From positions 1 to 45,611 of the forward strand of contig JADGRO010000002.1 of the NCBI GenBank assembly GCA_017880905.1: a stretch of DNA of 45,611 nucleotides, written 5' to 3'. Both the position numbers and the translations under genes were made by a program. A model generated the notes under the pieces. The model searched no databases and was not told the origin of the DNA. It saw only the letters and a list, made by a program, of their open reading frames with translations. The stretch's first letter is position 1. Each line of letters opens with the position of its first letter. Positions 26,972 to 45,587 of this stretch are shown here, piece by piece. This DNA is from Methylotenera sp. Lineage in GTDB: Bacteria > Pseudomonadota > Gammaproteobacteria > Burkholderiales > Methylophilaceae.

Positions 26972-27027
26972 GTGATGGCCTTTGGAAATCATAGCGGTTT
27001 ATTTATTAATAATTTGATAAGCGAAAT

Positions 27028-28430: not shown

Positions 28431-28433
28431 AAT

Positions 28434-29330: not shown

Positions 29331-29343
29331 CAAATCTTCCTTC

Positions 29344-30180: not shown

Positions 30181-30198
30181 CGTTTATTTTCACAAAAA

Positions 30199-30231
30199 CA
30201 GCCAGTTGAATGATAAATATTCAACTGGCTG
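30199..30231 (-). terminator. Hairpin with T-run between mop and cysT
   Basis: Perfect 13-bp stem (CAGCCAGTTGAAT and its complement) with a 7-base loop. Read on the minus strand it is followed by TTTTTG. It looks like a rho-independent terminator or attenuator inside the sulfate operon. Confidence 0.75.
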
Positions 30232-30251
30232 ACAGCTAAGTAATTGTTATA

Positions 30252-30467: not shown

Positions 30468-30486
30468 GACTGTTTCTCCTTTGCCG

Positions 30487-30509
30487 TTATTGGGCGTTAA
30501 GCCCAATAA
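30487..30509 (-). promoter_or_regulatory. Hairpin between sbp and mop
   Basis: Perfect 9-bp stem (TTATTGGGC and complement) with 5-base loop, about ten bases before the mop ribosome site and after the sbp stop. There is no T-run, so it is more likely an mRNA-stabilising or processing hairpin for sbp than a terminator. Confidence 0.6.
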
Positions 30510-30566
30510 TTGGGTATTGGTAACGTATTGAACTACTCTCATTTCTCTGGTCTCATTTTTTTAGTT

Positions 30567-31577
30567 TCATTTCTGATAAATTTGGTCAAAAACACCACCA
30601 TCGGAAAAATGCGTTTTTTGCGCTTTAGTCCAACCACCAAATACATCGTCAATTTTGACTAAATTGAGTTTAGGAAATTGTGATTCGTATTTTTTAGCAG
30701 CGGCTTCCGAAGTTGGACGGTAGTAGTTTTTACCAATGATGTCCTGCGCTTCGTCAGAGTATAAATACTCTAAATAGGCTTTTGCTACTGCTTCATTTCC
30801 ATGTTTCTTGGCAAATTTATCTACCACAGTAACTGGCGGTTCAGCCAAGATAGAAAGCGATGGCACGACGATTTCTACTTTGCCGGCACCCAATTCTTTT
30901 TGGGCTAAAAAGGCTTCATTTTCCCAAGCAAGCAACACATCGCCAATGCCACGCTCGACAAAGGTAGTGGTTGATCCACGCGCACCGCTATCTAGCACAG
31001 GTACGTTTTTGTATAACTTTCCAACAAACTCTTTAGCCTTAGCATCATCGTTGTTGTTATGCTTCAATGCATAGGCATAAGCTGCTAAGTAATTCCAACG
31101 CGCTCCGCCCGATGTTTTAGGATTTGGCGTAATCACTGAAATACCTGGCTTGACGACATCGTCCCAATCCTTGATGTTTTTCGGGTTGCCTTTACGCACC
31201 AAAAATACAATGGTTGAAGTGTAGGGGGAGCTGTTATGCTGTAAGCGTTTTTGCCAATCTTGCGGAATCAGCTTGCCTTTTTCATATAGCTGATCCACGT
31301 CATAGGCCAAAGCCAAAGTAGCTACATCGGCCTGCAAGCCATCAATCACGGCGCGGGCTTGTTTGCCAGAGCCCCCGTGTGACTGATTCACCTTGACAAT
31401 ATCACCGGTTTTGGTTTGCCAATATTTGCTGAAAGCTGCGTTGTAATCCACATATAACTCACGTGTAGGGTCGTACGAGACATTCAGCAAAGTAACCTCT
31501 TTTGCCGAGGCTACTGTAACCGCTGCAAAATTAAGCACGGCAGCGGCTAGTACAATTGATAATAGTGTTTTTTTCAT
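30567..31577 (-). CDS. sbp: Periplasmic sulfate-binding protein
   Basis: A 336-residue protein with a signal peptide ([20 protein letters not shown], cleavage near ASA-KE) and the sulfate-binding family motifs [65 protein letters not shown] and [16 protein letters not shown]. It captures sulfate in the periplasm for CysTWA. It is the first gene of the transporter unit, after an upstream porin gene 139 bases away. Sbp and CysP cannot be fully distinguished from sequence alone. Confidence 0.93.
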
Positions 31578-31716
31578 TAATAAATCCTTTAAATTTTAAA
31601 ACTTAATATTTGTTAAACGGTGTACTTCAGATATTTTTTACAACAGCATTCCATTTTATGCTCCATTTAAAACAGACCTTTGCTCAATTAGGTGACGAGC
31701 AGTATGTGTTTGTTGA

Positions 31717-33192
31717 TTAGTATGAAAGTTGCAAGCGAGTAAATAATGTTCGCTCGCTGGGTCTATTTGCAATATCTATAAATGACCCCGCTCCGGCAGT
31801 ACCAGCGGCATTTGCGTTGCCGCCGCCATTAAAACTTGTGTTCTCATAATCCAGCGCCAACTTCACATTTTGATTGAGATACCAGTTCACCCCCGCAGCC
31901 CACGATTTGGCAGAGCGGGCGTTATTTCTTGGGTCTGCATAACGAGTAGTTGTAACTACGCCCGCAGCTGTGCCAGAACTAAAAGCGCCACTGTCAATAT
32001 CATTTTCCTGATAACGTGCAACCAATTCCCAAGCACCCCAACCGCCTTTCTCGGTATCAAAAGGCTGGCTTGGTTTAACGCCTTTGAATGAAGCATCTTC
32101 ACCGGTAAGCAGATATGAAGCGGCTATTTGCCAAGCATCGTTATCTAGGCGATTTGATAGAGCGCCGTTACTAACATCTTGCGATACGCGCGCATATTCG
32201 GCGATTAGGCCAAATGGCCCATAATAGTAATAGGCTTGTGGGGAGAGGCGGTCTCTATTGCCATTACCGAACACGCCGGAAGAGTAAGTGAAGAAGTTTG
32301 ATTCTTGCCCTGCCGTTTTATAGTTTGGTAAGCCGCTTGCTGTTGTTGTACCTTTAAAGTTGCCATGCGTAGCAGCAAGGCCGAAACCTAAGCCTGCAAC
32401 TAGATTATCACTGTCTTTAAATGGTGTTGTGAATATTCGTAGTGCATATTCTTTATCTTGATTGGTATCTTGGGCGGTTGAATTATCCCCGCCATCAACT
32501 ACCCCATTGTATATACCCGCTGAATAATTTAGCTTACCATCAAGCAGATCACCATGAATCGCAGCACCAAGATCGCGATTTGGTAGGATGTTGTTGCTGA
32601 CATAACTGCGTTCAATGAATTTAAGTTCGCCTCCACTTTGTAGGCGCTCTAGGCCGACATATGGCTTGAATTTACCAGCACGCACCTGAAACCAAGGCTG
32701 AAAGCGTGCGTCGACATAGGCATCTACGATGCCGCTAGTACTGGTAGCATTGGCAGTTTTAGCTTCGCCAAATTCTGGTGCGAAACGAAAATCATATTTG
32801 TCATACACAGTGCCTTCAACGATTGGTCGAATACGGCGCAAATCAAAACCACTTATATTTTTACCGTCAGCACCCAGTCCGCCTACATTGCTGTAGTTGC
32901 GTTCGTCAACTTGTAACAGTCCACGTAATTTAATCTTAAAGTTACCATCTGCAGATTGAAAACCAAATCCATCTTTGGTGGTATTAACTACTGGCGTTTC
33001 TTTTTTAGCGGTTGCTGCAATTTCTTGTGCTATTTCATCTTTGCGCTCTAATATTTTTACTTTTTGGTTAAGCTCTTGCACCAAGCCACGTAATTCCTCA
33101 AGTTCTGCGCTATCGTTTGCGAATGCGATGATTGGACTTGCAACCAAGCCAGATAGCACTAAAGCGGATACTATTTTTTTGTATTGCATCAT
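31717..33192 (-). CDS. OprO/OprP-type porin
   Basis: A 491-residue outer-membrane protein. It has a signal peptide (cleavage near AFA-ND), a short coiled coil (residues about 28-55: LEELRGLVQELNQKVKILER), then GFGFQSADGNFKIKLRGLLQ, the usual start of the phosphate-selective porin O/P barrel, and a terminal phenylalanine-like strand ending RLQLSY. Asn/Gly-rich beta-strand repeats continue throughout. Between oscA and sbp it is probably the outer-membrane entry for sulfate or sulfonates; that is inference from context. Confidence 0.85.
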   Translation of the reverse strand: MMQYKKIVSALVLSGLVASPIIAFANDSAELEELRGLVQELNQKVKILERKDEIAQEIAATAKKETPVVNTTKDGFGFQSADGNFKIKLRGLLQVDERNYSNVGGLGADGKNISGFDLRRIRPIVEGTVYDKYDFRFAPEFGEAKTANATSTSGIVDAYVDARFQPWFQVRAGKFKPYVGLERLQSGGELKFIERSYVSNNILPNRDLGAAIHGDLLDGKLNYSAGIYNGVVDGGDNSTAQDTNQDKEYALRIFTTPFKDSDNLVAGLGFGLAATHGNFKGTTTASGLPNYKTAGQESNFFTYSSGVFGNGNRDRLSPQAYYYYGPFGLIAEYARVSQDVSNGALSNRLDNDAWQIAASYLLTGEDASFKGVKPSQPFDTEKGGWGAWELVARYQENDIDSGAFSSGTAAGVVTTTRYADPRNNARSAKSWAAGVNWYLNQNVKLALDYENTSFNGGGNANAAGTAGAGSFIDIANRPSERTLFTRLQLSY

Positions 33193-33286
33193 AAAACCCC
33201 TTATTTTTCTTCCAGTGGTCTGGTCAGAGTCTTATCAATTAAATTATTTAGCTCCCGTTATCAGGTAGCTTTTTAGTTTTTTAAAC

Positions 33287-33484
33287 TTATGTTCTTGAAA
33301 CAGTGGCTTTGTGCTCAAAGCGCACTTTTTCTCTACGTTCAATTTGTGTCACACGTCCATCATGCACAGTAATTTCAATTGAGCCATAACCAGTTTGCTG
33401 TTGCACTAAAGCAATTGCCTGCGCAACTGCCTGTAGTACCTCACTATCTGTATCTAGCAATAATTTTGATTTGGTTAAACTCAT
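33287..33484 (-). CDS. oscA: OscA-like sulfur-starvation protein (DUF2292)
   Basis: About 65 residues, with the DUF2292/YezD pattern VLQAVAQAIALVQQQTGYGS followed by IEITVHDGRVTQIERREKVR. Members named OscA lie upstream of sbp-cysTWA in Pseudomonas and are linked to sulfur starvation, and the gene order here is the same. The start is uncertain: the ATG at 33484 fits the family better than the one at 33496. A 15-base inverted repeat (33544-33558, ATACTTTTTAAGTAT) upstream could be an operator. Confidence 0.8.
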   Translation of the reverse strand: MSLTKSKLLLDTDSEVLQAVAQAIALVQQQTGYGSIEITVHDGRVTQIERREKVRFEHKATVSRT

Positions 33485-33543
33485 TTTTATGCGCACGTTT
33501 CAAAGAATGAGCGCACTTTAACAAAGCTTTTTAATAATTAAAA

Positions 33544-33558
33544 ATACTTTTTAAGTAT
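33544..33558. repeat. Short inverted repeat upstream of oscA
   Basis: ATACTT TTT AAGTAT, 6-bp arms, about 60 bases before the oscA start. Possible operator; AT-rich sequence makes chance occurrence fairly likely. Confidence 0.3.
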
Positions 33559-33628
33559 ATTTATATTCCGTATAGTTATATAAAATAGGCAATTGTGACA
33601 AGGGATTTTGAACACTTGAGAGCGGGGG

Positions 33629-33825
33629 TGGGGTGGCTGATGGAGCTCGAACCCACGACAACAGGAACCACAGCCTGAGTTGCATAATCATATAACTATA
33701 TAAAATATGATGATATTTTAGAATTTCTTGTCTAATATTTTTGCTTACTTTGCCTTAGTAAGCCTAGTTTCTGCCTTGTACGCCCTCATTTTATTAGACA
33801 TAATAATGGCAGAATTCGGCCAAAA
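33629..33825. repeat. att-like repeat A: tRNA-His 3' fragment plus end module
   Basis: 33629-33675 matches the tRNA-His 3' end (three substitutions, one deletion). After 53 bases follow TGTCTAATA (33729), then 52 bases with TAGTTT-type repeats, TTATTAGACA (33791-33800) and the GAATTC-centred imperfect palindrome (33808-33821). The preceding right-end motif is badly decayed. The flanking stretch 33497-34031 has no gene. Confidence 0.85.
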
Positions 33826-33981
33826 TCGTAAGTCCAACCTATTCCATAATTCCAGCTAATTTGCAAATCAGTTATACGCTCTCTGTCGCATTGCTGCATA
33901 ATTCTGATGGTTTGCCCGACCACTAAATCCGCCCCAGCTCACTGCTGGTAGTCACTTGCTTCAAGTCAGATAGCTCTTTGC

Positions 33982-34011
33982 TTGCCTTTTCAATTTTTCG
34001 CTGCGTATAAT
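33982..34011 (+). promoter_or_regulatory. Candidate sigma-70 promoter of the MlaE-type operon
   Basis: TTGCCT (33982-33987), 18 bases, TATAAT (34006-34011), 20 bases before the ATG at 34032, with ribosome site AAGGGGA. It lies inside the cargo unit, so the unit brings its own promoter. Confidence 0.55.
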
Positions 34012-34031
34012 CGTGCTAAAGGGGAAATTGA

Positions 34032-35147
34032 ATGGTCGCAGCTAGCTTTCGCGTTGCCCAGGATGACCAAGGTCGACGTCATGTTCAGCTTTTTGGTCAG
34101 TGGTCATTACGAGCGCCATCAAATGATTTTGCCAAACTTAAAAAATCATTACAGCCGTTTTTTGCGGATACTTTAACAAGATGGGATTTGCAGAAAGTTG
34201 AACAGCTAGACGCCGCCGGCGCCTCTACCCTCTTATCCGGATGGGGCAACAAACTCGATAGCAGCACCTCTCTCAAACCTGAACATGCAGAACTTTTTAA
34301 TACTCTAATCGGTATAACAAAACCGCCCAGTAAAAAAACTGAACGTGACTGGCTCGCACTGTTTGCTGGGGTTGGCAAAGGCATGTTCCACATCGCGCAC
34401 CATTTCACAGAGTTTATTCGTTTACTCTTTTCACTTTTAATCGAAATTGCCTATTTGTTTCGCCGGCCACAAGATTTTCCCTGGCGCGAATTCAGCGCTA
34501 ACGTATATAAAAGTGGCGTGAACGCCTTGCCAGTTACAGCACTATTGGGCTTTATGGTTGGTGTTGTAATGGGTTATTTAATGTCAAGGCAACTGCATAC
34601 GTTTGGTGCCGACATTTATATTGTCAATATTCTGGGACTTAGTATTATTCGAGAACTTGGCCCTGTACTGATGGCAGTGTTGGTTGCAGGCCGATCGGGC
34701 TCTGCAATGACAGCGCAAATAGGCGTGATGCGTGTAACGGATGAGATTGACGCGCTGACCACAATGGGGATTTCGCGTACTTTACGGGTTGTCCTACCCA
34801 AGGTGCTGGGACTGACCTTTGTCGCGCCTTTACTGGTGTTATGGACTTCTGGCTGGACGCTCGCTGGCGGTGCCTTTGCATCCAATTTAGAGCTAGGTAT
34901 CAGCTTTCGCTTCTTTTTTGATTATTTGCCGTTGGTTGTTCAGCCTATAAACCTCACGCTCAGCCTAATCAAGGGGCTGATGTTTGGTTTCGTTGTTGCG
35001 TTGGTCGCTTGCCACTTTGGCTTACGTATCAAGCCAAATACCGAGAGCTTGAGCAATAGCACAACAAGTTCAGTGGTAACGGCGATATCCGGAGTGATTC
35101 TGGTCAATGCTTGGTTTGCAATTTTGACACGTAGCATAGGCGTATGA
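34032..35147 (+). CDS. MlaE-family ABC permease with N-terminal STAS domain
   Basis: A 371-residue protein. Residues about 1-80 form a STAS-like domain (VQLFGQWSLRAP ... WDLQKVEQLDAAGASTLL), fused to an MlaE permease (about 100-370) with GVNALPVTALLGFMVGVVMG, ELGPVLMAVLVAGRSGSAMT and EIDALTTMGIS, the family's core motifs. Five to six membrane helices are visible. This fused form differs from E. coli MlaE, where the STAS protein (MlaB) is separate. It probably moves phospholipids or other lipids between membranes with the next three genes. It overlaps the ATPase gene by four bases (ATGA). Confidence 0.9.
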   Translation: MVAASFRVAQDDQGRRHVQLFGQWSLRAPSNDFAKLKKSLQPFFADTLTRWDLQKVEQLDAAGASTLLSGWGNKLDSSTSLKPEHAELFNTLIGITKPPSKKTERDWLALFAGVGKGMFHIAHHFTEFIRLLFSLLIEIAYLFRRPQDFPWREFSANVYKSGVNALPVTALLGFMVGVVMGYLMSRQLHTFGADIYIVNILGLSIIRELGPVLMAVLVAGRSGSAMTAQIGVMRVTDEIDALTTMGISRTLRVVLPKVLGLTFVAPLLVLWTSGWTLAGGAFASNLELGISFRFFFDYLPLVVQPINLTLSLIKGLMFGFVVALVACHFGLRIKPNTESLSNSTTSSVVTAISGVILVNAWFAILTRSIGV

Positions 35148-35947
35148 GCGAGGATTTCATTCAAAACGCCGCAGATGGAGATGCTTCAGATCAGGATATC
35201 ATCTGTGACATACAGAATGTTTGTACGGAATTTGGTGACAATATTGTTCACCATAATCTCAACTTAAAGGTTAAGCGTGGCGATATCCTTGCCCTGGTGG
35301 GGAGGTCAGGCTGTGGCAAAACTACATTATTGCGTCACATCATAGGGCTGACCAAACCAATAAGCGGTAATGTGCTATTGTTCGGACAAAATCTGCACGC
35401 CATGGAGCGTGTAGCACAACGACGCCTGATGGATCGTTTTGGCGTGCTGTTTCAACAAGGCGCTTTATTTTCGGCGCTTTCTGTATTCGACAATATTGCT
35501 TTTCCGTTACGTGAATTAAAACAATTTGATGAATCCATCATCTACCAACTGGTGATGCATAAACTATCATTAGTTGAACTTGAGCCGCGCAATGCAGACC
35601 TGCTTCCTGCTGAGCTTTCAGGTGGCATGGTGAAACGTGTGGGGCTCGCGCGCGCGCTTGCTCTAGAGCCAGAACTATTAGTACTTGATGAACCCACCGC
35701 AGGATTAGATCCTGATCGTAGTCATAATTTTATCGATCTTGTTAAACAGCTAAAAAAATCATTGGGACTAACCGTGCTTTTTGTCACCCATGATATGGAC
35801 ACCCTAGCTTCGCTAGCCGAACGCGTGGCAGTATTAGAGGACAAACATATTATTGCAGATTGTTCATTACATGAATTGGCTGAAATTGATCACCCCTTTG
35901 TAATCAATTTCTTCCAGAGTATCCGTAGCAGACTTGAGAGATTATAA
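35144..35947 (+). CDS. MlaF-like ABC ATPase
   Basis: A 267-residue ABC ATPase. Walker A is GRSGCGKTT, the Q-loop is FGVLFQQGALFSALSVFDN (MlaF-typical), the signature is LSGGMVKRVGLARALALEP and Walker B is LLVLDEPTAGLDP. The LSGGM variant is characteristic of the MlaF/Ttg2A family. An N-terminal extension of about 20 acidic residues is unusual. It energises the MlaE-type permease. Start and stop are coupled with neighbours, supporting one operon. Confidence 0.93.
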   Translation: MSEDFIQNAADGDASDQDIICDIQNVCTEFGDNIVHHNLNLKVKRGDILALVGRSGCGKTTLLRHIIGLTKPISGNVLLFGQNLHAMERVAQRRLMDRFGVLFQQGALFSALSVFDNIAFPLRELKQFDESIIYQLVMHKLSLVELEPRNADLLPAELSGGMVKRVGLARALALEPELLVLDEPTAGLDPDRSHNFIDLVKQLKKSLGLTVLFVTHDMDTLASLAERVAVLEDKHIIADCSLHELAEIDHPFVINFFQSIRSRLERL

Positions 35948-35953
35948 TAAGTT

Positions 35954-36904
35954 ATGGAAAACCGAGCTTATGCAATTGCAGTTGGTATCTTCACTTTAAT
36001 GCTTGGAATAGGCATGACGTTCGCCTATTGGTGGATCGGTGGCTCGCAGAAGGATCGCACAGAATACACTGTAACATCTCAATTGCCAGTCACTGGCTTA
36101 AGCCCTGAGGCTGTAGTTAAATTTCGTGGTGTAGATATAGGCAAAGTGATGAAAATATCACTTGACCCTTCCTCCCAAACCACCGTCCTAATTGACATTG
36201 CGGTCGCACAAAACTTGAAGCTTAGTAGTGAAGCTTATGCTGAGCTTCGTCGACAAGGGCTAACAGGGCTTGCTTATATTGATCTAAATGATGAAAGTAA
36301 AAACGCGTCTAAGCTGCCAACTGGCGGCAACATTCCGCTTCGGCCAACTTTTGTGGACGATTTAATGTCCAAAGGTCCAGAACTTACTGCGCAATTTGAA
36401 GTACTGTTGCGAAACAGTACTCAGCTCTCCGACTCTGCCAATCGTATTTTGACAAATATTGATATTCAAAAATTGAATAATACCATTGCAAATTTTGAAA
36501 AAGCATCTGAGAAAGTTTTACCAGTAATTAATTCCGCGACAAATATGTTTAGCAATGCCAATAAAATGGTGTCCGAGAAAAATCAAGCCCAGTTCGTAAA
36601 ATCGTTAGAAAGCGCGCAACAGACTTTTGATGCTGCAAGACCAGTCATCAATGAACTGAGCATAACAACTAAAAAATTCCACAGCACAGCTGATCAAATT
36701 GAAATCAGTACCAATCAGCTTGCCAACACACTTGGTAATGAAACCTTACCGCAGTTATATACGCTGACTCAAAATATAGACCGAAGTGCCATTCATTTCA
36801 ACCAGCTTATTGATGTTCTAGAAGATAATCCGCAAAGTATCCTGTTTGGAAAACCAGTTCTGCCAGCAGGACCTGGTGAAGAAGGATTTATCGCTAAGCC
36901 ATGA
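35954..36904 (+). CDS. MlaD-family MCE-domain protein
   Basis: A 316-residue protein with an N-terminal membrane helix (residues about 7-27) and the MCE domain (about 38-115): EYTVTSQLPVTGLSPEAVVK, FRGVDIGKVMKISLDP and ELRRQGLTGLAYIDL. A long helical/coiled-coil tail follows (about 130-290), more like PqiB/LetB or Mycobacterium Mce helices than the short E. coli MlaD. It probably forms the periplasmic lipid channel or tunnel. It starts seven bases after the ATPase stop. Confidence 0.9.
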   Translation: MENRAYAIAVGIFTLMLGIGMTFAYWWIGGSQKDRTEYTVTSQLPVTGLSPEAVVKFRGVDIGKVMKISLDPSSQTTVLIDIAVAQNLKLSSEAYAELRRQGLTGLAYIDLNDESKNASKLPTGGNIPLRPTFVDDLMSKGPELTAQFEVLLRNSTQLSDSANRILTNIDIQKLNNTIANFEKASEKVLPVINSATNMFSNANKMVSEKNQAQFVKSLESAQQTFDAARPVINELSITTKKFHSTADQIEISTNQLANTLGNETLPQLYTLTQNIDRSAIHFNQLIDVLEDNPQSILFGKPVLPAGPGEEGFIAKP

Positions 36905-36912
36905 GGATCAGA

Positions 36913-37512
36913 ATGCAACCTAATATTTTACTGTTAACTAGCAGCCTGATTATAAGCACTCTAGCCGCTTGCGTTCCTATAAACAAAACTAAACAAAATA
37001 CGGCTGTTTACGATTTTGGTTTGTCTGTTCCAAGCGAAAGTAATCAACAAATTACTTTAAAAATATTGTTAGAAGAGCCGGTTGTAGCGGAGTCTCTCAA
37101 TCATAATAAAATTCGTTATCGCCTGAACTATCAAAACCCTTCGCGAGTTTTTTATTATACCGAGAGCCGTTGGGCAGCCACGCCCTCAGAGCTGTTTTCA
37201 AGCAAACTAAGCAAGATGGTAAATTTAACAAATAACCCAACGAACTGTAGCCTGAAAATAAAAATAGAAGCTTTTGATCACGTGTTTCAAACAGCAGCTA
37301 CCAGTGATGGCATAGTTCAGTTGAGCGCATTAGTAGTTGAGAGAAAATCCAAAAAGATTGTCTCAAGCCAACTTATTACAGAAAGCGTCACTTCCCCCTC
37401 ACCTAATGCACAAGGCGGAACAGTCGCGCTGCAACGGGCGGGCGAAAATGCGCTGAAAAAAGTAATTAATTGGGGAAATATGATTGCTGATAACAGCGAG
37501 CTTTGCCAATAA
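36913..37512 (+). CDS. ABC-type auxiliary lipoprotein (PqiC/LbcB-like)
   Basis: About 199 residues, with a lipoprotein signal and lipobox LAAC (cysteine about residue 19). The body fits the ABC-transport auxiliary family: ITLKILLEEPVVAESLNHNK ... RYRLNYQNPSRVFYYTESRW. PqiC-type lipoproteins sit in the outer membrane and receive the MCE tunnel. GAGGA just before the ATG at 36913 favours it over the overlapping ATG at 36901. It is the last gene of the operon and of cargo unit I. Confidence 0.8.
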   Translation: MQPNILLLTSSLIISTLAACVPINKTKQNTAVYDFGLSVPSESNQQITLKILLEEPVVAESLNHNKIRYRLNYQNPSRVFYYTESRWAATPSELFSSKLSKMVNLTNNPTNCSLKIKIEAFDHVFQTAATSDGIVQLSALVVERKSKKIVSSQLITESVTSPSPNAQGGTVALQRAGENALKKVINWGNMIADNSELCQ

Positions 37513-37533
37513 GCGATTTTAAATGTCAGTTTG

Positions 37534-37761
37534 GGGTCGATATTAGACACTTTAAAACAAGTATTTGGGGTGGCTGATGGGACTCGAAGCCACGACAACA
37601 GGAATCATAACCTGAGTTGCATAATCATATAACTATATGATTAATAAATATATATTGGAATTAGTGTCTAATAACTTTGCTTAGTTTGCCTCAGTAAGCC
37701 TAGTTTGTGCCTTGTATGCCCTAGTTTTATTAGACAAATTAATGGCTGAATTCAGCCAAAA
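37534..37761. repeat. att-like repeat B: right-end motif, tRNA-His fragment, left-end module
   Basis: GGGTCGATATTAGACAC (37534-37550), 15 bases, tRNA-His 3' fragment 37566-37612 (three substitutions, one deletion), 52 bases, TGTCTAATAA (37665-37674), 52 bases, TTATTAGACA (37727-37736) and a perfect palindrome GGCTGAATTCAGCC (37744-37757). All parts are present. It fills most of the gene-free stretch 37513-37857. Confidence 0.9.
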
Positions 37762-37857
37762 CCGGCCAGTCCAGTTTATAAACTCAAGAAATATCATACT
37801 CAAATTTATTGTTTTGACATACAATTTGCATCCCTAACCACAGAATAGGCAGAACAA

Positions 37858-38376
37858 ATGAGTGAGGAGACTAAGGCTTGTCCAGTATGTGGGGAAAGCA
37901 TCAAAATGGCGGCAATCAAGTGCAGATTCTGCAATACCGATTTGGTCGCCTATTCAGCTGCGAAAGAAGCTGAAACTGAGAATGCTTTATTCAATGGCCA
38001 CCCTGCAGTCATTTACAACTTCTGGCAATGGCTGGCTGTTCTTTTCACCTTTGGTATTGCCTACCTTGTCTACTGGATTCGAAGCATCTCAACAAACTAC
38101 GAGATAACAACGCAGCGAGTCAGAATTGAACGAGGCATCCTCTCCAAATCAAAAGAAAACATCGAGTTGTTTCGCATTGATCATTTCGACTTGCAAAAAC
38201 CTCTAGGAATGCGACTAGTTGGTAAATGTATCCTCCACCTTCGCTCGTCGGACACTAATTTTCCGACAGTGATTATCCTAGGCATACCAAACTTAGAGTC
38301 TCTGGCTGACACACTACGTGAATGTTCGTTACGCGAGCGTAAGAGAAGACAAGTAACTACATTCGTGCAAGCCTGA
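37858..38376 (+). CDS. Zinc-ribbon plus bacterial PH-domain membrane protein
   Basis: 172 residues. An N-terminal zinc ribbon (CPVCGESIKMAAIKCRFCNT, two CxxC pairs at residues about 8-26) is followed by a membrane hairpin (about 56-80: FWQWLAVLFTFGIAYLVYWI) and a bPH2/YdbS-like PH domain (YEITTQRVRIERGILSKSKE ... IELFRIDHFDL). Proteins of this build are membrane-associated with unknown roles. It lies 13 bases before the beta-propeller gene, so the two are probably cotranscribed. Confidence 0.82.
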   Translation: MSEETKACPVCGESIKMAAIKCRFCNTDLVAYSAAKEAETENALFNGHPAVIYNFWQWLAVLFTFGIAYLVYWIRSISTNYEITTQRVRIERGILSKSKENIELFRIDHFDLQKPLGMRLVGKCILHLRSSDTNFPTVIILGIPNLESLADTLRECSLRERKRRQVTTFVQA

Positions 38377-38389
38377 TGCCCCCTACCAT

Positions 38390-39439
38390 ATGCACATTAA
38401 ATTTTTAATTTGGACTTTGGTTGGCATCTATCTTTTAAGTAGCTATGTTGCACAAGCAGCGCAGTCGACAGAAAGCCTCAAATTCACGATTACGAATCGT
38501 TATAACGTTGGTGGTGAAGGTGGATGGGATCTACTCACTTTTGATACAAAACATCACCATTTGTTTATCAGCCGGTCATCTCACGTTCAAGTCATAGATG
38601 CTGATTCAGGCAAAATGGTTGGTGATATTCCTGACACCGAAGGCGTACATGGAATAGCGCTTGCAGATGATTTAAATCTTGGGTTTACAAGTAATGGCAA
38701 AAGTAACTCAGTGACAGTATTTGATTTGACTACACTCGACGTAGTCGAAACCATTAAAATTTCTGGCTTGGGTCCAGATGCTATTCTTTATGAACCTATA
38801 TCAAAGCATATATTTGTTTTTAATGGACACTCTTCCAACGCTACTGTCATTGATGCAATTACGCGTAAAGAAATTGATACGATTAACTTACCTGGAAAGC
38901 CTGAGCTTGCAGTACGCAATCATGCGGGCAATATTTTTGTAAATATTGAAGATAAAAATGAAATTGTCGTTATCGACAGTAACACTAACAAAATATTAAA
39001 GACTTTTCCAATTGGAAGCAGTGAAGAACCTAGTGGATTAGCCATTGATAAAGCACATAATCGACTATTCTCAGTCTGTGCCAATAACAAAATGGTGGTT
39101 CTGGATTCTGAGACTGGAAGAATTGTTTCCGAGCTTGCTATTGGCTCATCGCCAGACTCAGCGGCATTTGACCCAAATTTAGGCATAGCATTTAGCTCAA
39201 ATGGAGATGGGACGCTCACTATAATAAAAGAGAATGACCCTGAGCACTTCTCTGTATTGCAAAACCTGATTACCCAAAAAGGTGCACGCACCATGGCTTA
39301 TGACTTGGACAAACATAGGGCTTATCTTGTAACAGCTTCGTTTGGTGAGACCCCACCAGCAACAACAGAACATCCGAAACCCAGACCAGCAATCATTCCA
39401 AATAGTTTTATTGTTTTAGTAGTTTCATTGCAGCCGTAA
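38390..39439 (+). CDS. Exported YVTN-type beta-propeller protein
   Basis: 349 residues. It has a signal peptide (cleavage near AQA-AQ) and then about seven blades of YVTN/NHL-like repeats: HHLFISRSSHVQVIDADSGK, ANDLN-type turns, HIFVFNGHSSNATVIDAITR and NRLFSVCANNKMVVLDSETG. Such proteins are periplasmic scaffolds or binding proteins; some take part in metal or surface-layer functions. No catalytic motif is visible. It is the last gene of cargo unit II. Confidence 0.83.
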   Translation: MHIKFLIWTLVGIYLLSSYVAQAAQSTESLKFTITNRYNVGGEGGWDLLTFDTKHHHLFISRSSHVQVIDADSGKMVGDIPDTEGVHGIALADDLNLGFTSNGKSNSVTVFDLTTLDVVETIKISGLGPDAILYEPISKHIFVFNGHSSNATVIDAITRKEIDTINLPGKPELAVRNHAGNIFVNIEDKNEIVVIDSNTNKILKTFPIGSSEEPSGLAIDKAHNRLFSVCANNKMVVLDSETGRIVSELAIGSSPDSAAFDPNLGIAFSSNGDGTLTIIKENDPEHFSVLQNLITQKGARTMAYDLDKHRAYLVTASFGETPPATTEHPKPRPAIIPNSFIVLVVSLQP

Positions 39440-39470
39440 TTTTTTAGTTGTTGATTAACGACCGCTTTTA

Positions 39471-39517
39471 TCCGATATTAGACACTTAAAAAAACTAAAA
39501 TGGGGGGTGGCTGATGG
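39471..39517. repeat. att-like repeat C (truncated)
   Basis: TCCGATATTAGACAC (39471-39485), 15 bases, then only about 17 bases of the tRNA-His end (39501-39517, with two extra G) before homology stops. The left-end module of the next unit is missing. I see nothing else in 39518-39678 apart from a ribosome site (GAGAGG) for the next gene. Confidence 0.8.
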
Positions 39518-39678
39518 CTACGGAGTATGGGGCATGCTACTTGATATACCAATTATCGTCATCATAAAGGTAGCCTGCGTGCATATTGAGAATTTGCAAC
39601 CAGTTGCTGAGCTTTTAGGTGATTAGCTAGTGACTCAAACTCTATAGAAGTACTTTGATAGTAACAGAGAGGTAAATT

Positions 39679-39918
39679 ATGGAAGCTACAATACACAGCC
39701 TTGGCAATCTTTTTGCACAACTTGGCTTATCTTCTGACGAGTTAGCAATAGAGAACTTCTTTAAAACTCATAGCTCTTTGGCAACGAATGATTTGCTTTC
39801 TGACGCACCATTCTGGACTCTGGCACAAGCCTCATTTTTGTGTGAAGAAATTCTAAACGATGCAGATTGGGCAGAAGTGATTGACCAATTAAACGTAAAA
39901 TTGCATGAAAAAAATTAA
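39679..39918 (+). CDS. DUF2789 family protein
   Basis: A 79-residue helical acidic protein matching the DUF2789 pattern: HSLGNLFAQLGLSSDE, then LSDAPFWTLAQASFLCEEI and ADWAEVIDQLNVKL. The family is small, cytoplasmic and of unknown function. GAGAGG lies seven bases upstream of the ATG. It is convergent with the ICMT-like gene. Confidence 0.85.
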   Translation: MEATIHSLGNLFAQLGLSSDELAIENFFKTHSSLATNDLLSDAPFWTLAQASFLCEEILNDADWAEVIDQLNVKLHEKN

Positions 39919-39991
39919 TGCTTTGGCAAGCCGATGACTGTTGACTAGGATCATATTTACCTAGCATTGTTTTGTTCAATTTTTGTGGTGA

Positions 39992-40447
39992 TTAAATCCA
40001 GCGTCGAACACGTTGCTGGTAGTTCCGATATTCCTGCCCGAATTTATCCATTAGCATTAATTCTTCTGGAACGATTTGCTGTTTGTTAAGTATCCATACA
40101 AATAAGGGTAGCATCGACCATGAGCTAAGGCTTCCCAAAAACAATGCCCAACCACTTAACATAACCAGCAAACCCAAATACATCGGATTCCGCGAAAAGC
40201 GATACAGCCCATCTGTGACCAAGTGACTAGTATTACTCGGTTTCATCGGATTGGGAGTAGTTTTGGCTTGGTAAAATAAAAATAGTGACCAAAGGTCTAG
40301 TATTATCGCTACTCCGATTATGACTAATCCTAACGTACTTAATGGCTTACTCAACCATTTATACAAAGGAAAATATTTATCTAGCAACCACATCATGCCT
40401 GCAGCTATAAGCACGTAGATAGGAGGCGGAATTTTAGTTTTAAGCAT
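39992..40447 (-). CDS. Isoprenylcysteine methyltransferase-like (ICMT/PEMT) membrane protein
   Basis: A 151-residue protein with three to four membrane helices and the ICMT/PEMT SAM-binding signature LVTDGLYRFSRNPMYLGLLV near residues 83-105, followed by FVWILNKQQIVPEE and FGQEYRNYQQRVRRWI, the usual C-terminal pattern. The bacterial members methylate small membrane-embedded or lipid-like substrates; the substrate here is not known. GGGAG precedes the start. Confidence 0.88.
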   Translation of the reverse strand: MLKTKIPPPIYVLIAAGMMWLLDKYFPLYKWLSKPLSTLGLVIIGVAIILDLWSLFLFYQAKTTPNPMKPSNTSHLVTDGLYRFSRNPMYLGLLVMLSGWALFLGSLSSWSMLPLFVWILNKQQIVPEELMLMDKFGQEYRNYQQRVRRWI

Positions 40448-40639
40448 GATGACTCCCTGAATCTATTTTATTTTCAATATACCTCATATGTAACTTTTTA
40501 ATTGATCAGTAACATATTAATTATGTATTAGCTTGTTTGGTTTGAGTGGGGTCTATTTTTTTATTTATGCTATGTGTTATCGAACTGAAGTCAGAATGTT
40601 ATAAACTTGATAATGTCTATTCCAACTTTTAAGGAGTAG

Positions 40640-40819
40640 ATGATGCAAAATCGCAGTAATAGCATATTTGATCAAATAGTTAATAAGGGAATTGTTATTT
40701 CTAGGTTTAAAGGTATGGTACCAGCAAATAAAATGATGAAAATAGCAGGAATACCTGATCATATTATTGAACGAGTTTTATTTGAGCCACAAAAGCTCAG
40801 AAGCACTGACTGGAGTTAG
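40640..40819 (+). CDS. Small ORF of 59 residues (hypothetical)
   Basis: ATG at 40640 preceded by AAGGAG at ideal distance, with an open frame of 59 codons to TAG at 40817. The product includes GMVPANKMMKIAGIPDHIIE and ends QKLRSTDWS; the AGIPxxIIERVL pattern looks like a short helical motif. I do not recognise a family. The good ribosome site and its isolated position in cargo unit III support it. A 61-residue frame on the opposite strand (40577-40762) is judged a shadow. Confidence 0.5.
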   Translation: MMQNRSNSIFDQIVNKGIVISRFKGMVPANKMMKIAGIPDHIIERVLFEPQKLRSTDWS

Positions 40820-40899
40820 CTAACCAGAATACCAAACCAATGGTTTTATTTGTGCAAAATGACCCCATTAATACTAATCCCACCTAACCTCAATTCATT

Positions 40900-41125
40900 C
40901 GATTTTAGATGCTTAAAAAAGGTAATTGGGGTGGCTGATGGGGCTCGAACCCACGACAACAGGAATCACAATCCGTGTTGCATAATCATGTAACTATCTA
41001 ATTAATTTATATATTTCAAATTTTACTGTCTAATAAATTTGCTTAGTTTCCCCTAGAAAGCCTAGTTTCTGCCTTGTATGCCTTAGTTTTATTAGACAAA
41101 TTAATGGCTGGATTTAGCTAATAGA
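40900..41125. repeat. att-like repeat D
   Basis: Degenerate right-end motif (40900-40920), tRNA-His fragment 40927-40974 identical to the real gene over 48 bases, 52 bases, TGTCTAATAA (41027-41036), 52 bases, TTATTAGACA (41089-41098), then a decayed palindrome. It fills most of the gene-free stretch 40820-41223; I see nothing else in it. Confidence 0.9.
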
Positions 41126-41223
41126 GGATATTTACGTTTTTTATCTATAATTCAGTCACTAGGAAATGCTGAATATCAAATTAGGTTTCTAAATTTATTC
41201 ATATCTGAAAATCATCTAAATAT

Positions 41224-42543
41224 TTAGCCAATTGATTCATTAATATTTTCTTCATCTTTTGGCAAATAAATCACTCCAGTATTGAAATTGTATTCAAACA
41301 CATCCCCATAACGACCCCACTCGATTGCGATACTCAGTGCACGCTCGGCTTCAACTTGATTAAGAGTGAAGCGTAATAACTTGAGAAAGAGATCTTCGGG
41401 AAGATCACCTGATGGATCTTGTTCCAAGCCATGTCGAATGTAGGCTATCAAAGGAACATGTTCCAGTAGTTGTTTACTAAAAATTCTTTGACGTTCAGCA
41501 TTAGTTGAAGCGATATAGTTGATGCCCAGTTTAGTAATAACAACATCACCTTGAGCGAGTTGTACAAAACCTAGGAGCGTTAGGGCACGTGAAACTTCTA
41601 ACAATTCATTATCCGTGAGTTCAGTATCTTCCGCTAGCTTGGGTAAGTCAGCTCGACCGTGAAAGGGCTCCTCAGTAAGTAGCTCAAGTATACCTTCCAT
41701 GCGGGTAATATCCGCTTCTGGCAGCCGGTCGCCTAACTGCAGCTTGATTTCGACCCCTGCCAGACGGCCAGGTCGCGCAGAGCCAGTAGTCATAAGCCCA
41801 TAAACGTTATCAATCAGTGCACGTATTTCCTGACTTTCAACTTCTCTAGGATGATTTAGGGTAATGGGTAGCTCAGCCCGTACCCGTCCTGGATCACTCG
41901 CAAATATAAGTACGCGGTCGGCCATCATCACTGCTTCTTCAATATTGTGCGACACAATGAGGATTGCCTTTGTTGGGATTTCTTTGTTATTCCATAGTTC
42001 CAGTATGTCCTCACGCAAGCGTTCTCCTGTTAGCACATCCAGTGCAGAGAATGCTTCATCCATAAGCAAAACTTCCGGCTCAAGTACCAATGCACGTGCG
42101 ATGCCAACCCGTTGACGCATCCCGCCTGATAATTCCCGTGGTAATGCGCCTTCAAAACCAGTCAAGCCTATCATTTCAATTGCTGCCTGTGCACGTCTTT
42201 CTCTTTCCTTGATGGACACTCCTTGTGCTTCTAGACCAAGCTCCACATTTTTCTGAACCGTGAGCCACGGGAAAAGTGCAAATGACTGAAATACCATACT
42301 AATACCGCGCGCAGCACCATAGATGGGTAAACCTTGATATAACACTTCACCTTTGTCGGCTGGGATCAGGCCAGCCATAATACGCAGCATAGTGGATTTG
42401 CCTGAACCAGACTGTCCGAGCAAAGCCACTATCTCACCTTCGTTCAGCGTAAAGTCAACATCTTGCAATACTAAACGCGCTGTGCCGTCAGCTGAATGGA
42501 ATGACTTATTAACAGATTTAAGTTCGACAATCGGTGTACTCAT
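41224..42543 (-). CDS. NitT/TauT-type ABC ATPase with C-terminal AAA-associated domain
   Basis: 439 residues. The ATPase part (1-250) has Walker [11 protein letters not shown]-loop [20 protein letters not shown], signature [19 protein letters not shown], Walker [12 protein letters not shown] and H-loop VSHNIEEA, typical of the nitrate/sulfonate/taurine group. The extra C-terminal ~170 residues match the AAA-associated domain that some of these ATPases carry ([20 protein letters not shown] ... [15 protein letters not shown]). It is coupled to the permease gene upstream (11-base gap, AAGGAAG before ATG). No substrate-binding gene is nearby. Confidence 0.88.
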
Positions 42544-42554
42544 ATGCTACTTCC

Positions 42555-44285
42555 TTAAAAGTGTAGGCGGTTTTCGGCCATACGATAAAGTCGCCGCCAG
42601 ACAAAATGATTAAATCCCATGACAAATATACACATAATGCCTATACCTAAGGCTATACGGGGGAAGTCACCTTTGGATGTCATCTCTGCGATATAGCTAC
42701 CAATACCATGCGCTTGCAACGTAGTGTGACCCCAAGTCACGTACTCAGCTACGATACTGGCGTTCCAAGAACCACCTGTTGCTGTGATCGCGCCAGTCAC
42801 AAAGCTTGGGAAAATTGCTGGCAACAGGTAGCGTCTCCATTTAAGCCAACCACTCAACTCTAGGTTCTGTGCGACATAGTGCAGTTCTGTCGGAATGGTA
42901 GAAGCGCCCGCGATAACATTGAACAGCAGATACCATTGTGTTCCGAGGATCATCAATGGCGATAACCAGATGTCGGGATTGAGTCCAAAATGTACAATCA
43001 GCACCACCGCGCCAGGAAACATTAAGTTGGCCGGAAAAGCAGCCATGAATTGGGCAATAGCTTGTACCTTCGAGGATAGGTTAGGCCTCATGCCTACCCA
43101 AACTCCAATCGGAATCCAGATCAAGGCAGCCAGAACAATTAAGATGACGACACGGGATAAGGTAAAGAGGCCGAGTACAAATACGTGCCCAGCTTCACCC
43201 CAGCCAACTTCGGTATGAATAAAGTGAATGAGCAACCAAAGCGCATAAAAAGCCGCTGCTGCAATGATCGCATCCCAGATCCGTTCACTTACTGAAGATT
43301 GTTTACTTGGTCTAGCTTGTATCGAGGTGCCATCATAAGTCCGTCGAAACAGAACAAATGTCATTTGCATAAGCCTTCCAACTCTTTCTACTATTACTTC
43401 TACCCAGCTGGCCCTATGTAGCCAAGTCAACATCCATGACTGCTGGGCTGTTTCATTACTGGATTCTTCAAAACGAAATTTATCAGCCCAAGCAACTAGC
43501 GGCCTAAAGAAAAGCTGGTCATAGAGTAAAATACCTATGAACATGGTACCAATCGCCCAGCCAATTGCATTTAAATTTTGTTGTTCAATGGCCAGTGCAA
43601 TATAAGAGCCTATACCGGGTAATTTGATATTTTGATTAGACACGGAAATTGCTTCTGAAGCCACTACAAAGAACCAGCCGCCTGACATGGACATCATCAT
43701 ATTCCATAATAAGCCGGGCATAGCGAAAGGTAGCTCTAAACGCCAAAAACGCTGCCAGCCTGACAACTGAAACACTTCCGCAGCCTCTATCAGCTCCGCA
43801 GGAACGGTGCGAAAACCTTGATAAGCACTAAAGGCCATGTTCCAAGCTTGTGATGTAAAAATAGCAAAGATTGCTGCGCATTCCACCCCAAGTAAACTGC
43901 CTGGAAACAATGCAATAAACATTGTGACCGTAATCGATAAAAACCCAAGAATGGGTATCGACTGAAGGATATCTAGGAGGGGTACTAGGATTTTTTCGGC
44001 AACTTTATATTTCACTGTCATGGCCGCAAAAACGCAGCTAAATACCATTGAAGCCGCTAGTGCGATAAACATCCGTATTGTAGTACGTAACAGGTAATAT
44101 GGTAAGTTAAGCGGGTCTAGCGACAATGGTAATGTTTCACCCAGTTGAAACGGGCGAGCCATCTGCTCAGCGCCGTAAGCGAGTAATACGAGCAAGGCCA
44201 AGACCATGGGAAGCAATGCCCAATCCCAGCGATTACCACCGGCCTCGACTACCTGTTTTGGGAAAAACTGCCTAATTTTGCTCAT
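42555..44285 (-). CDS. Tandem-domain ABC permease (NitT/TauT-type)
   Basis: 576 residues with two complete permease domains in one chain. The first EAA loop is in ELIEAAEVFQLSGWQRFWRL (about residues 165-185) and the second in LHYVAQNLELSGWLKWRRYL (about 465-485), each flanked by five or six membrane helices, with a soluble linker at about 285-335. Such fused permeases pair with AAA-associated ATPases like the one downstream. The substrate is unknown, possibly an organic anion such as nitrate or a sulfonate. No clear ribosome site is seen before the ATG. Confidence 0.88.
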   Translation of the reverse strand: MSKIRQFFPKQVVEAGGNRWDWALLPMVLALLVLLAYGAEQMARPFQLGETLPLSLDPLNLPYYLLRTTIRMFIALAASMVFSCVFAAMTVKYKVAEKILVPLLDILQSIPILGFLSITVTMFIALFPGSLLGVECAAIFAIFTSQAWNMAFSAYQGFRTVPAELIEAAEVFQLSGWQRFWRLELPFAMPGLLWNMMMSMSGGWFFVVASEAISVSNQNIKLPGIGSYIALAIEQQNLNAIGWAIGTMFIGILLYDQLFFRPLVAWADKFRFEESSNETAQQSWMLTWLHRASWVEVIVERVGRLMQMTFVLFRRTYDGTSIQARPSKQSSVSERIWDAIIAAAAFYALWLLIHFIHTEVGWGEAGHVFVLGLFTLSRVVILIVLAALIWIPIGVWVGMRPNLSSKVQAIAQFMAAFPANLMFPGAVVLIVHFGLNPDIWLSPLMILGTQWYLLFNVIAGASTIPTELHYVAQNLELSGWLKWRRYLLPAIFPSFVTGAITATGGSWNASIVAEYVTWGHTTLQAHGIGSYIAEMTSKGDFPRIALGIGIMCIFVMGFNHFVWRRLYRMAENRLHF

Positions 44286-44412
44286 GTTGAAATTAAATAA
44301 GAATTATTGTTCTTAGAATATCATAGCAAAGTTACGGATTTAAAATACCGTATGCGAACCTAAGTTCTCCCAATATTTACGGGTCAACAGAGTATTTCCA
44401 AAGGGTGCTTAA

Positions 44413-44640
44413 GGGTCGATATTAGACACTTAAAATCGGTAATTGGGGTGGCTGATGGTGCTCGAACCCACGACAACAGGAATCACAATCCGCGTTATAA
44501 AATCACGTAACTACCTAATTAATAAATAAAATATTGATGTTCCTTGTCTAATAAATCTGCTTAGTTTGCCTTAGAAAGCCTAGTTTCTGCCTTGTACGCC
44601 CTCATTTTATTAGACAGAATATGGCTGAATTCGGCCAAAA
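44413..44640. repeat. att-like repeat E
   Basis: GGGTCGATATTAGACAC (44413-44429), 14 bases, tRNA-His fragment 44444-44491 (47 of 48 identical), 53 bases, TGTCTAATAA (44545-44554), 52 bases, TTATTAGACA (44607-44616), palindrome GGCTGAATTCGGCC (44623-44636). Complete copy. It covers most of the gene-free stretch 44286-44693. Confidence 0.92.
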
Positions 44641-44693
44641 GAGACCGTTCAAATTAGTATTGAAAAATTGATATTGGCAACTTCGCACGACTG

Positions 44694-45191
44694 CTACCAC
44701 CGCGTATTCCGGATTCCTAGCTGAAATGACAAATGATTTATTATGATATCACCGACGAAGCTCACGGTGAGTATCATGATAACGTCAAGCCAACCCAGGC
44801 GTACCCAGAAGGACAAGGCAAGCAGACCACCAAGAACAAAGTCAAGTTGATCGGCGGGAATCCACGATTGTCCGGGGGCGATTTTAAGCCGCCGCTTGAC
44901 GTAGCTCTTCAGGCTGTCCCCAATCATGGCGCCGCAGCCACTAGCCAAGCCAAGTAGAAACCACTGCTCATAACTCACCAAGTCACCCTGCCAGTGAATC
45001 CTGGACTGAAATAAAGCAGTCAGAATCGCTGCTGCAAGGCCTAAGAAAAAGCCCACCACCGTTTTGTGGCTCCCAAGCCAACGCCTACTGATAGGCCAAT
45101 TCCGCCACCGCCAATACCTGACGAATGGCGGTGCCATATTCGCAAAGTAGATCGGCAACATCATATAAAACAGTTCAACGATTCTGATCAT
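44694..45191 (-). CDS. CarS-like CDP-archaeol synthase family protein (CDP-alcohol/lipid)
   Basis: A 165-residue membrane protein matching the CarS (DUF46) family: PIYFANMAPPFVRY, then GSHKTVVGFFLGLAAAILTA, GCGAMIGDSLKSYVKRRLKI and IPADQLDFVLGGLLALSFW, with five membrane helices. The GD..KS.(R)R and PADQ-D motifs, which bind CTP and metal in CarS, are intact. In archaea it makes CDP-archaeol; bacterial members probably activate another lipid alcohol. It is preceded by a long palindrome (45220-45242). Confidence 0.88.
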   Translation of the reverse strand: MIRIVELFYMMLPIYFANMAPPFVRYWRWRNWPISRRWLGSHKTVVGFFLGLAAAILTALFQSRIHWQGDLVSYEQWFLLGLASGCGAMIGDSLKSYVKRRLKIAPGQSWIPADQLDFVLGGLLALSFWVRLGWLDVIMILTVSFVGDIIINHLSFQLGIRNTRW

Positions 45192-45219
45192 AGGCTTAGC
45201 AGAGCATGTTAAATATAGT

Positions 45220-45242
45220 CATATTGCATCAGATGCAATATG
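45220..45242. promoter_or_regulatory. Perfect 23-base palindrome upstream of the CarS-like gene
   Basis: CATATTGCATC, A, GATGCAATATG: 11-base perfect arms around one base, 29 bases before the ATG. It overlaps a possible promoter on the minus strand (TTGCAT, 17 bases, TATTTA). It has the form of a repressor operator. No regulator gene is in the unit. Confidence 0.55.
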
Positions 45243-45478
45243 CTTTCAACTATTGAAACGGAGTGCGAAAATGCTAGACGCAGATTCCAGAAACTACGTC
45301 TCCGCATTATCTGCACCGAGTTCCACATCAGGTCTAGACCGTCTCTCAGTTGCAGGATACAGTAGGTCGCATCATTAGTAGTGAGATATGCGAAAACCAC
45401 GCGGCACACAATGAGCTTCCAGTCGAGGTCCACGTTCGGAGTAACTACGGCTTAACTCGTACATTCATCGTCCGCTTT
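45243..45478. other. Gene-poor stretch of cargo unit V
   Basis: About 236 bases of more GC-rich sequence. A 35-codon frame (45271-45378, plus strand, GGAG upstream) and a 74-codon frame on the minus strand are both unconvincing. It may be the remnant of a gene; I cannot identify it. Confidence 0.3.
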
Positions 45479-45495
45479 GGGTCGATATTAGACAC
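45479..45495. repeat. att-like right-end motif (copy F) beside tRNA-His
   Basis: GGGTCGATATTAGACAC, 15 bases before the tRNA 3' end, the same spacing as in copies B, C and E. In tRNA orientation it lies just downstream of CCA. Confidence 0.85.
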
Positions 45496-45510
45496 TTAAA
45501 AGGGCTTAAA

Positions 45511-45587
45511 TGGGGTGGCTGATGGGGCTCGAACCCACGACAACAGGAATCACAATCCTGGACTCTACCAACTGAGCTACAGCCACC
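45511..45587 (-). tRNA. tRNA-His (anticodon GTG)
   Basis: An intact tRNA on the minus strand. The acceptor stem GTGGCTG pairs with CAGCCAC, and the G at 45587 can pair with discriminator C, the extra G-1 hallmark of tRNA-His. The D-arm contains AGCTCAGTTGGTAGAG, the anticodon loop is TTGTGAT (GTG) on a CAGGA/TCCTG stem, and the T-arm has GGTTCGAGCC. The CCA end is encoded (45511-45513). Its 3' 48 bases are copied in repeats A, B, D and E. Confidence 0.97.

Follow-up and report, generated by a model that had tools for sequence, protein, structure and literature searches.

The 45,611-nt stretch of Methylotenera sp. DNA analysed here (assembly GCA_017880905.1, contig JADGRO010000002.1, positions 1 to 45,611; the window) ends in a tandem array of probably six units, none of which encodes an integrase, lying between a conserved response-regulator gene and an intact tRNA-His(GTG) gene. 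The units measure 7.95, 3.94, 1.94, 1.42, 3.52 and 1.07 kb from the outermost (unit 0) to the one adjoining the tRNA (unit 5). It is likely, judging from the comparison of sequences, that they were inserted serially at tRNA-His, most likely by an integrase of the kind found at this gene in relatives, acting in trans or on a unit that moves in cis with its neighbour. As we picture it, circular units, each with a proximal arm (P), a core and a distal arm (P'), would be recombined by a tyrosine integrase with the 3' half of tRNA-His, at its anticodon-loop end. Each insertion would rebuild the tRNA gene and displace the older units outward. The integrase would be supplied in trans by an integrase-bearing element, or the unit would move in cis together with such an element next to it (accretion). 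Excision of single units and a route between cells would be further steps of this model.

tRNA-His is the sole tRNA called in the window by ARAGORN, and its last 44-48 nt are repeated, oriented as in the gene itself, at 33629, 37566, 40927 and 44444. These copies, and a truncated one near 39503, had been noticed in an earlier inspection of the letters alone (the sequence-only reading) and are confirmed here. A 51-nt pattern allowing up to 3 mismatches has three matches (the gene, 40927 and 44444) and none in 100 shuffles, and a chance origin of the repeats is therefore rejected. In the organism's own genome (G000; genomes, contigs and fetched loci carry the handles G, C and L), matches of at least 44 nt with at least 90% identity occur on this contig only, besides the start of contig C42, which is tRNA-His itself, shared through a 127-bp contig overlap; the long copies are thus confined to the locus and not spread over the genome. 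From far to near, the copies differ from the gene at 3, 3, 0 and 1 of their first 45 nt, which fits outward accretion only loosely. Direct repeats of the tRNA 3' end at the borders, with an intact gene at one end, are what tRNA-targeting elements display.

Two borders are degraded. The copy near 39503 keeps about 15 nt of the core and was accepted because a conserved arm (39472-39491) precedes it. A decayed copy at 25679-25710 (32 nt, 88% identity) lies 112 bp from the response-regulator gene, and the outermost, likewise decayed copy in the relative G010 lies 113 bp from it; since the two are equally near the regulator, unit 0 is probably part of the array. The five blocks of 1.0-3.9 kb counted by the sequence-only reading stand, and its total gains a probable sixth, the largest.

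The window contig ends 25 bp beyond tRNA-His, and its overlap with C42 covers this gene (45485-45611). Three draft contigs of relatives (G003:C25, G004:C162 and G012:C15) break 2-20 bp from the tRNA-His 3' end, on the island side. Such breaks may reflect strain variation at the gene.

The repeated unit is longer than the 48 bases first described: the core copies were rightly recognised, and conserved arms extend the repeat on both sides of them. On the left, a proximal arm similar to TCGATATTAGACACTTAAAA closes five of the six units. With up to 3 mismatches its motif occurs at five places in the window, each just before a core; the copy at 33629 is without it. To the right, the distal arms carry TGTCTA at about +100 and TAGACA at about +166, counted from the first base of the core. 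Within the window, no place other than the four good distal ends has this pair at this spacing (matches on the minus strand are the same sites), and the truncated (39503) and decayed (25679) copies are without it. Over some 190 bp right of the core the window units are 67-77% identical, with unrelated cargo following. At 37566, 40927 and 44444 the junctions read P arm, core, P' arm, the layout predicted for an insertion beside an earlier insertion.

The site was compared in relatives with one genome taken per species, 15 of the same genus (Methylotenera-type Methylophilaceae) and 187 of the family. In G007, a complete genome of the same genus, some 364 bp without any copy separate tRNA-His from the response-regulator operon, and in G170 this gap is 117 bp. 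Such an empty target is a further mark of tRNA-targeting elements; together with the integrase-bearing units next to the tRNA in other relatives, it bears out the serial, site-specific insertion at tRNA-His that the sequence-only reading had proposed. Where occupied, the site holds one or two units in relatives, and their content differs between species, as it does in additive flexible islands. The window's own blocks were not seen there: no window cargo protein has a match in the fetched tRNA-His loci at E 1e-15, except for general ABC-ATPase similarity in one relative.

Five of the 15 same-genus genomes (G002, G008, G009, G010 and G011) have a tyrosine integrase of about 333 aa at tRNA-His, with 85-100% identity to the G008 protein; it is split over two contigs in G009 and cut by a contig end in G002. 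The elements of G008, G010 and G011 are 5.2-5.6 kb long, are bounded by core copies, and share a Rep_trans-type (RstA-like) protein and a conserved protein of 163-175 aa. Their cargo is variable: DUF3800 in G008, a dGTPase in G011 and unnamed proteins in G010. PADLOC, applied to eight cargo proteins of these elements, named the dGTPase alone. The Rep protein is about 30% identical to replication initiators of inoviruses, a relation that hints at rolling-circle copying. The small elements (L046 13631-18830, L049 982-6428 and L050 952-6557) have the appearance of very small integrative elements that replicate, and their cargo may serve defence. In viral contigs we found neither a stretch with the distal-arm pattern nor a confirmed relative of the integrase, and the integrase matches in phage (160) and plasmid (109) records all fall below 60% identity.

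Units free of an integrase occur in relatives as well. G010 has an integrase element and, behind it, an integrase-less unit with an alanine dehydrogenase; this layout, taken by itself, is compatible with cis mobilisation by the adjacent element. The single unit of G006 has no integrase; it encodes an M13 peptidase and an EF-hand protein, and its distal arm is like those described above. Outside the genus, G129 and G144 hold units without these arms, and no integrase of the tRNA-His family was found in them; in a Methylophilaceae metagenome-assembled genome (MAG; L157) the arms are present and, again, no such integrase was found in the unit. One sequence in G013 we read as a fragment of a different integrase.

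In three further MAGs, fetched by motif and assigned to Gallionellales, Sulfuricella and Methylococcaceae (L151, L154 and L158), the same distal-arm geometry stands at tRNA-His cores, which suggests that this type of site is wider than the Methylophilaceae. In G067, a relative of 1.3 Mb, a ATATTAGACA-bearing flank lies directly before the intact tRNA-His (L146 18620-18758), and no core copy is present within the 19.7 kb fetched; the flank is perhaps the relic of an excised or decayed unit.

Whether the cargo units and the integrase elements use one type of attachment site was assessed on 22 distinct partial tRNA-His cores in the fetched loci. Both hexamers are in place in 12 of them (four window units, G006, and borders in G008, G009, G010, G015, G178, G180 and G202) and one hexamer in two (G011 and G021). 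The count requires at least 39 nt of core, so the window copies at 39503 and 25679, which have no pair, fall outside it; partial copies in, for example, G040, G043 and G026 lie outside the fetched loci; five cores fetched solely by the arm motif (from L150-L159) were excluded, and some of the 22 were obtained by BLAST with an attachment-site query, the matches in G010, G021, G202 and G006 extending beyond the core. In four of the five integrase genomes a distal border is visible: both hexamers stand in three of them, a single one in the fourth. This geometry is kept in arms that are mostly 35-50% identical between genomes. The distal arm closest to those of the window belongs to the integrase element of G010 (56-64% identity), followed by that of G006 (52-56%) and the others (36-53%).

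The sites also vary jointly at the two ends. G015, G202 and G178 have TGTCTAC/GTAGACA in the distal arm and a GTAGACA..GTCTAC palindrome in the proximal one; G180 has the GTAGACA-type variant of both ends, on separate contigs; in G010 and G011 the sites of both ends are of the TTAGACA type, the distal TGTCTA of G011 reading CGTCTA. Such joint variation suggests that one protein reads both arms, in which case the hexamers would be its binding sites. Because the distal arms of the window units match those of the integrase elements in the core and in the spacing of TGTCTA and TAGACA, the units most probably relied on an integrase of that kind in trans or moved in cis with a neighbour. The case that cargo units and integrase elements share attachment-site use is, in our estimation, good but not final.

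Several observations weigh against it, or against the serial insertion of the window units. Eight of the 22 cores (G013, G029, G050, G129, G144, G156, G210 and the second core of G180) have neither hexamer, and other integrases therefore probably use tRNA-His too. The integrase of G210 is 84% identical, yet its distal border is without both hexamers. No cargo unit has more than one TTAGACA (near -23), and the integrase elements have a palindrome near -66 (-42 in G002); since the proximal arms differ in this way, a single enzyme for both is uncertain. The cargo-type proximal motif, with up to 3 mismatches, stands beside a core in no other same-genus genome (one other match in the genus, in G014, has no core beside it), and the versions of this arm in G006 and G010 are looser. 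The organism's own genome bin, 92% complete, contains no integrase of the tRNA-His family. With one genome compared per species, no unit was observed that one strain has and another lacks. Finally, the unit 4 cargo and the unit 2 cargo each have five relatives in other genomes, and at the border of none of these was a tRNA, whole or fragmentary, found; border repeats were sought in five of five and four of five of them, respectively, and several of the contigs are short. In one such relative, G022, a tRNA-Arg(CCT) lies 811 bp away.

The alternative that we regard as possible, and take most seriously, is that the units are decayed remnants, classical cis-mobilisable elements (CIMEs) whose own integrase and replication genes were deleted and which are now static. 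This is the origin that the passages concerned describe for tandem integrase-less islands (PMC5704250; PMC3146451), it accounts for the two degraded borders, and it agrees with the lack of a matching integrase in the genome. The shared distal arms fit either a deletion-derived CIME or a separate kind of cargo unit. Against decay, a tblastn search of the window for the integrase, the Rep and the 164-aa protein gave no convincing relic (best E 0.023). In addition, the proximal arm common to five of the six units is absent from the integrase elements and, as noted, has looser versions in G006 and G010, which points to the cargo units as a lineage of their own.

The arms would also allow cargo to be swapped by homologous recombination between the tRNA-His repeats or arms of related strains, with no integrase ever acting on these units: they are similar enough between window units of unrelated cargo, and one and the same Mla cargo has different arms around it at other tRNAs. 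We think this improbable, as it requires a prior array; moreover, the hexamer spacing kept in diverged arms points to protein-binding sites, and integrase elements occupy the very site. That the repeats are structured or regulatory RNA elements, or an artefact of assembly, is very hard to credit. The assembly is indeed broken at the end of the contig beside tRNA-His, but every internal junction lies inside the contig and like layouts recur in other genomes; a search of 25-45.6 kb with Rfam returned tRNA-His and one match below the family cut-off, and an RNA-element origin is rejected. Serial insertion by a tRNA-His integrase thus remains our preferred account of the array.

Positions of the array features and cargo genes are listed in Table 1; the cargo genes are of common metabolic or cell-envelope types. 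The transporter genes of unit 0 are, in our reading, of the sulfate type, and the ABC_trans_aux-like lipoprotein of unit 1 scores just below the Pfam cut-off. A self-contained operon in every block, as the sequence-only reading had it, does not hold for the units at 39503-40927 and 44444-45511, each of which carries a single gene. The response-regulator gene, whose start is a chosen ATG inside a longer listed open reading frame (ORF), and the genes next to it come after tRNA-His in the empty-site relatives. The G+C content of the units (36.5-46.2%, against 44.3%) is uninformative. Pfam Phage_integrase has six matches in the whole genome, none of them on the window contig. No transfer genes are apparent among the named ORFs; no separate search for them was made. 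The window units thus keep attL and attR and are without integration genes, as CIMEs are, and the earlier likening of them to cis-mobilisable elements is apt.

Table 1. Features of the tRNA-His array and its chromosomal neighbour, in window positions
Feature	Position	Strand	Remark
Response regulator	24140..25567	-	conserved chromosomal neighbour
Decayed att (attachment) core	25679..25710	+	probable outermost border; 112 bp from response-regulator start
Unit 0 cargo (unit 25679-33629)	25711..33628		HAD-family protein, ABC transporter genes, solute-binding protein, porin O/P
att core copy, unit 0/unit 1 border	33629..33672	+	3/45 mismatches
Distal (P') arm, unit 1	33673..33828	+	TGTCTA at 33729, TAGACA at 33795
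Unit 1 cargo (unit 33629-37566)	34032..37512	+	MlaE permease, ABC ATPase, MlaD/MCE protein, ABC_trans_aux-like lipoprotein
Proximal (P) arm, unit 1	37537..37556	+	TAGACA at 37544
att core copy, unit 1/unit 2 border	37566..37610	+	3/45 mismatches
Distal arm, unit 2	37611..37765	+	TGTCTA at 37665, TAGACA at 37731
Unit 2 cargo (unit 37566-39503)	37858..39439	+	bacterial PH-domain protein, beta-propeller protein
Proximal arm, unit 2	39472..39491	+	TAGACA at 39479
Truncated att core, unit 2/unit 3 border	39503..39517	+	no distal arm seen for unit 3
Unit 3 cargo (unit 39503-40927)	39992..40447	-	PEMT/ICMT-type membrane methyltransferase
Proximal arm, unit 3	40899..40918	+	3 mismatches, without TAGACA
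att core copy, unit 3/unit 4 border	40927..40974	+	0/45 mismatches
Distal arm, unit 4	40975..41121	+	TGTCTA at 41027, TAGACA at 41093
Unit 4 cargo (unit 40927-44444)	41224..44285	-	ABC ATPase with AAA-associated C-terminal domain, BPD-type permease
Proximal arm, unit 4	44416..44435	+	TAGACA at 44423
att core copy, unit 4/unit 5 border	44444..44491	+	1/45 mismatches
Distal arm, unit 5	44492..44640	+	TGTCTA at 44545, TAGACA at 44611
Unit 5 cargo (unit 44444-45511)	44694..45191	-	CarS-like membrane protein
Proximal arm, unit 5	45482..45501	+	adjoins tRNA-His; TAGACA at 45489
Intact tRNA-His(GTG)	45511..45586	-	insertion target, 3' half = att core; ARAGORN, Rfam

Among the 187 family genomes, the organism's own included, the unit 4 permease occurs in 6 (E 1e-40), the unit 2 propeller in 6 (E 1e-20), the unit 5 protein in 1 (E 1e-8) and the unit 1 lipoprotein in 33 (E 1e-8), in 11 of these at 67% identity or more. 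Ten other genomes have a close relative of the unit 1 Mla cargo, and in 6 of these a tRNA gene or a piece of one is nearby. In G004 the Mla cargo is accompanied by tRNA-Arg(ACG) 3' pieces of 45 and 27 nt, one on each side. In G010 there is a tRNA-Lys fragment at the tail (the isoacceptor is our reading) and an intact tRNA-Lys(CTT) at the head, and G184 has tRNA-Lys(CTT) at the head. The distance is 17 bp to tRNA-Arg(CCT) in G157, about 60 bp to tRNA-Leu in G160 and 452 bp to tRNA-Arg(CCT) in G190; no convincing second tRNA fragment was found in these three genomes, which therefore show adjacency rather than proven insertion. The operon is without a nearby tRNA in G192, G195, G200 and G201 (the contig of G201 being cut).

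Some side observations concern these loci. In two genera (L189 1-3896 and L194 6554-10292), about 105 bp separate the head of the Mla operon from the 5' end of an intact tRNA-Lys(CTT), and in G010 the order of the tRNA-Lys fragment near the Mla tail is unexplained by simple insertion. A second repeat family, with arms of its own, is found at tRNA-Arg(ACG) in G000 (C38:25669-25753, C7:9451-9588 and C10:1359-1408); an integrase lies directly beside this tRNA, and further repeat pieces lie on other contigs. The tRNA-Arg(ACG) repeat also flanks the Mla cargo in G004 (L192 2548-2758 and 6788-6996).

Across genomes, then, the Mla operon is found at or near genes or fragments of tRNA-His, tRNA-Arg(ACG), tRNA-Arg(CCT), tRNA-Leu and tRNA-Lys. 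A broader idea, which we put forward tentatively and with some doubt, is that of a tRNA-anchored cassette system, in which Rep-plus-integrase helpers would mobilise in trans minimal two-arm cassettes holding one operon or gene, and in which one cargo operon could be re-armed for different tRNA genes. The array itself provides a model for how islands without a recombinase may grow at tRNA genes, with the cargo bringing its docking sites and relying on another element. Mobilisation in trans is directly testable, since the arm sites, an integrase candidate, an empty site and a locus that naturally pairs helper and cargo (G010) have been identified.

That no described cassette system has this layout, as first supposed, holds in a narrower sense only, since the Dehalococcoides ssrA islands and tRNA-Lys repeats in the family itself come close. 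A tRNA-His array was not reported in titles and abstract openings on Methylophilaceae or Methylotenera with tRNA and integrase, or on tRNA-His with integrase and attP, among the matches listed. As the relevant passages of PMC3146451 have it, Dehalococcoides carries tandem islands at ssrA, 15 of them without an integration module, which were proposed as possible cis-mobilisable elements. They resemble the present array in lying in tandem downstream of one tRNA-like gene, with copies of its 3' end at the borders and a conserved flanking motif. They differ in employing a serine recombinase (DsiB) at a transfer-messenger RNA gene, whereas the present locus involves a tyrosine integrase, tRNA-His, units down to one gene, and arm sites on both sides of the core. 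CIMEs and the accretion of ICESt1-type elements, as treated in the parts of PMC5704250 concerned with them, share with our units the retention of attL and attR, the lack of an integrase and the tandem placement with integrase-bearing elements. CIMEs are defined there as elements that have lost integration and transfer genes; in contrast, no relic was found here, and a distinct proximal arm is common to the cargo units.

Within the Methylophilaceae, tRNA-Lys repeats mark additive islands (fGI-2, in the corresponding section of PMC10872708), and the term tRNA-His is absent from the main text of that paper. Additive flexible islands in general (PMC10872708; Alteromonas, PMC4119200; Actinomarinales, PMC7771536) are alike in having cassettes beside a tRNA, direct repeats of its 3' end and transport or metabolic cargo; the passages on them report no tRNA-His, arm sites or arm-sharing integrase element. 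Tycheposons, as summarised in PMC10872708, are likewise tRNA-targeted, with a tyrosine recombinase and cargo such as nutrient genes. The window units, unlike them, have no recombinase, and the integrase elements at tRNA-His have an RstA-like Rep. In tycheposons, the tyrosine recombinase and the hallmark genes reside in the element. Integron cassettes and clusters of attC sites lacking integron-integrases (CALINs), in the portions of PMC11389934 that describe them, depend, as the window units may, on an integrase encoded elsewhere; their site is attC, whereas here, going by repeat identity, it is the 3' half of a tRNA with arm sites, and the units reach the size of whole operons. What appears to be new at tRNA-His is an arm architecture common to cargo-only units and integrase elements, units that go down to one gene, and a cargo operon found at several tRNA loci.

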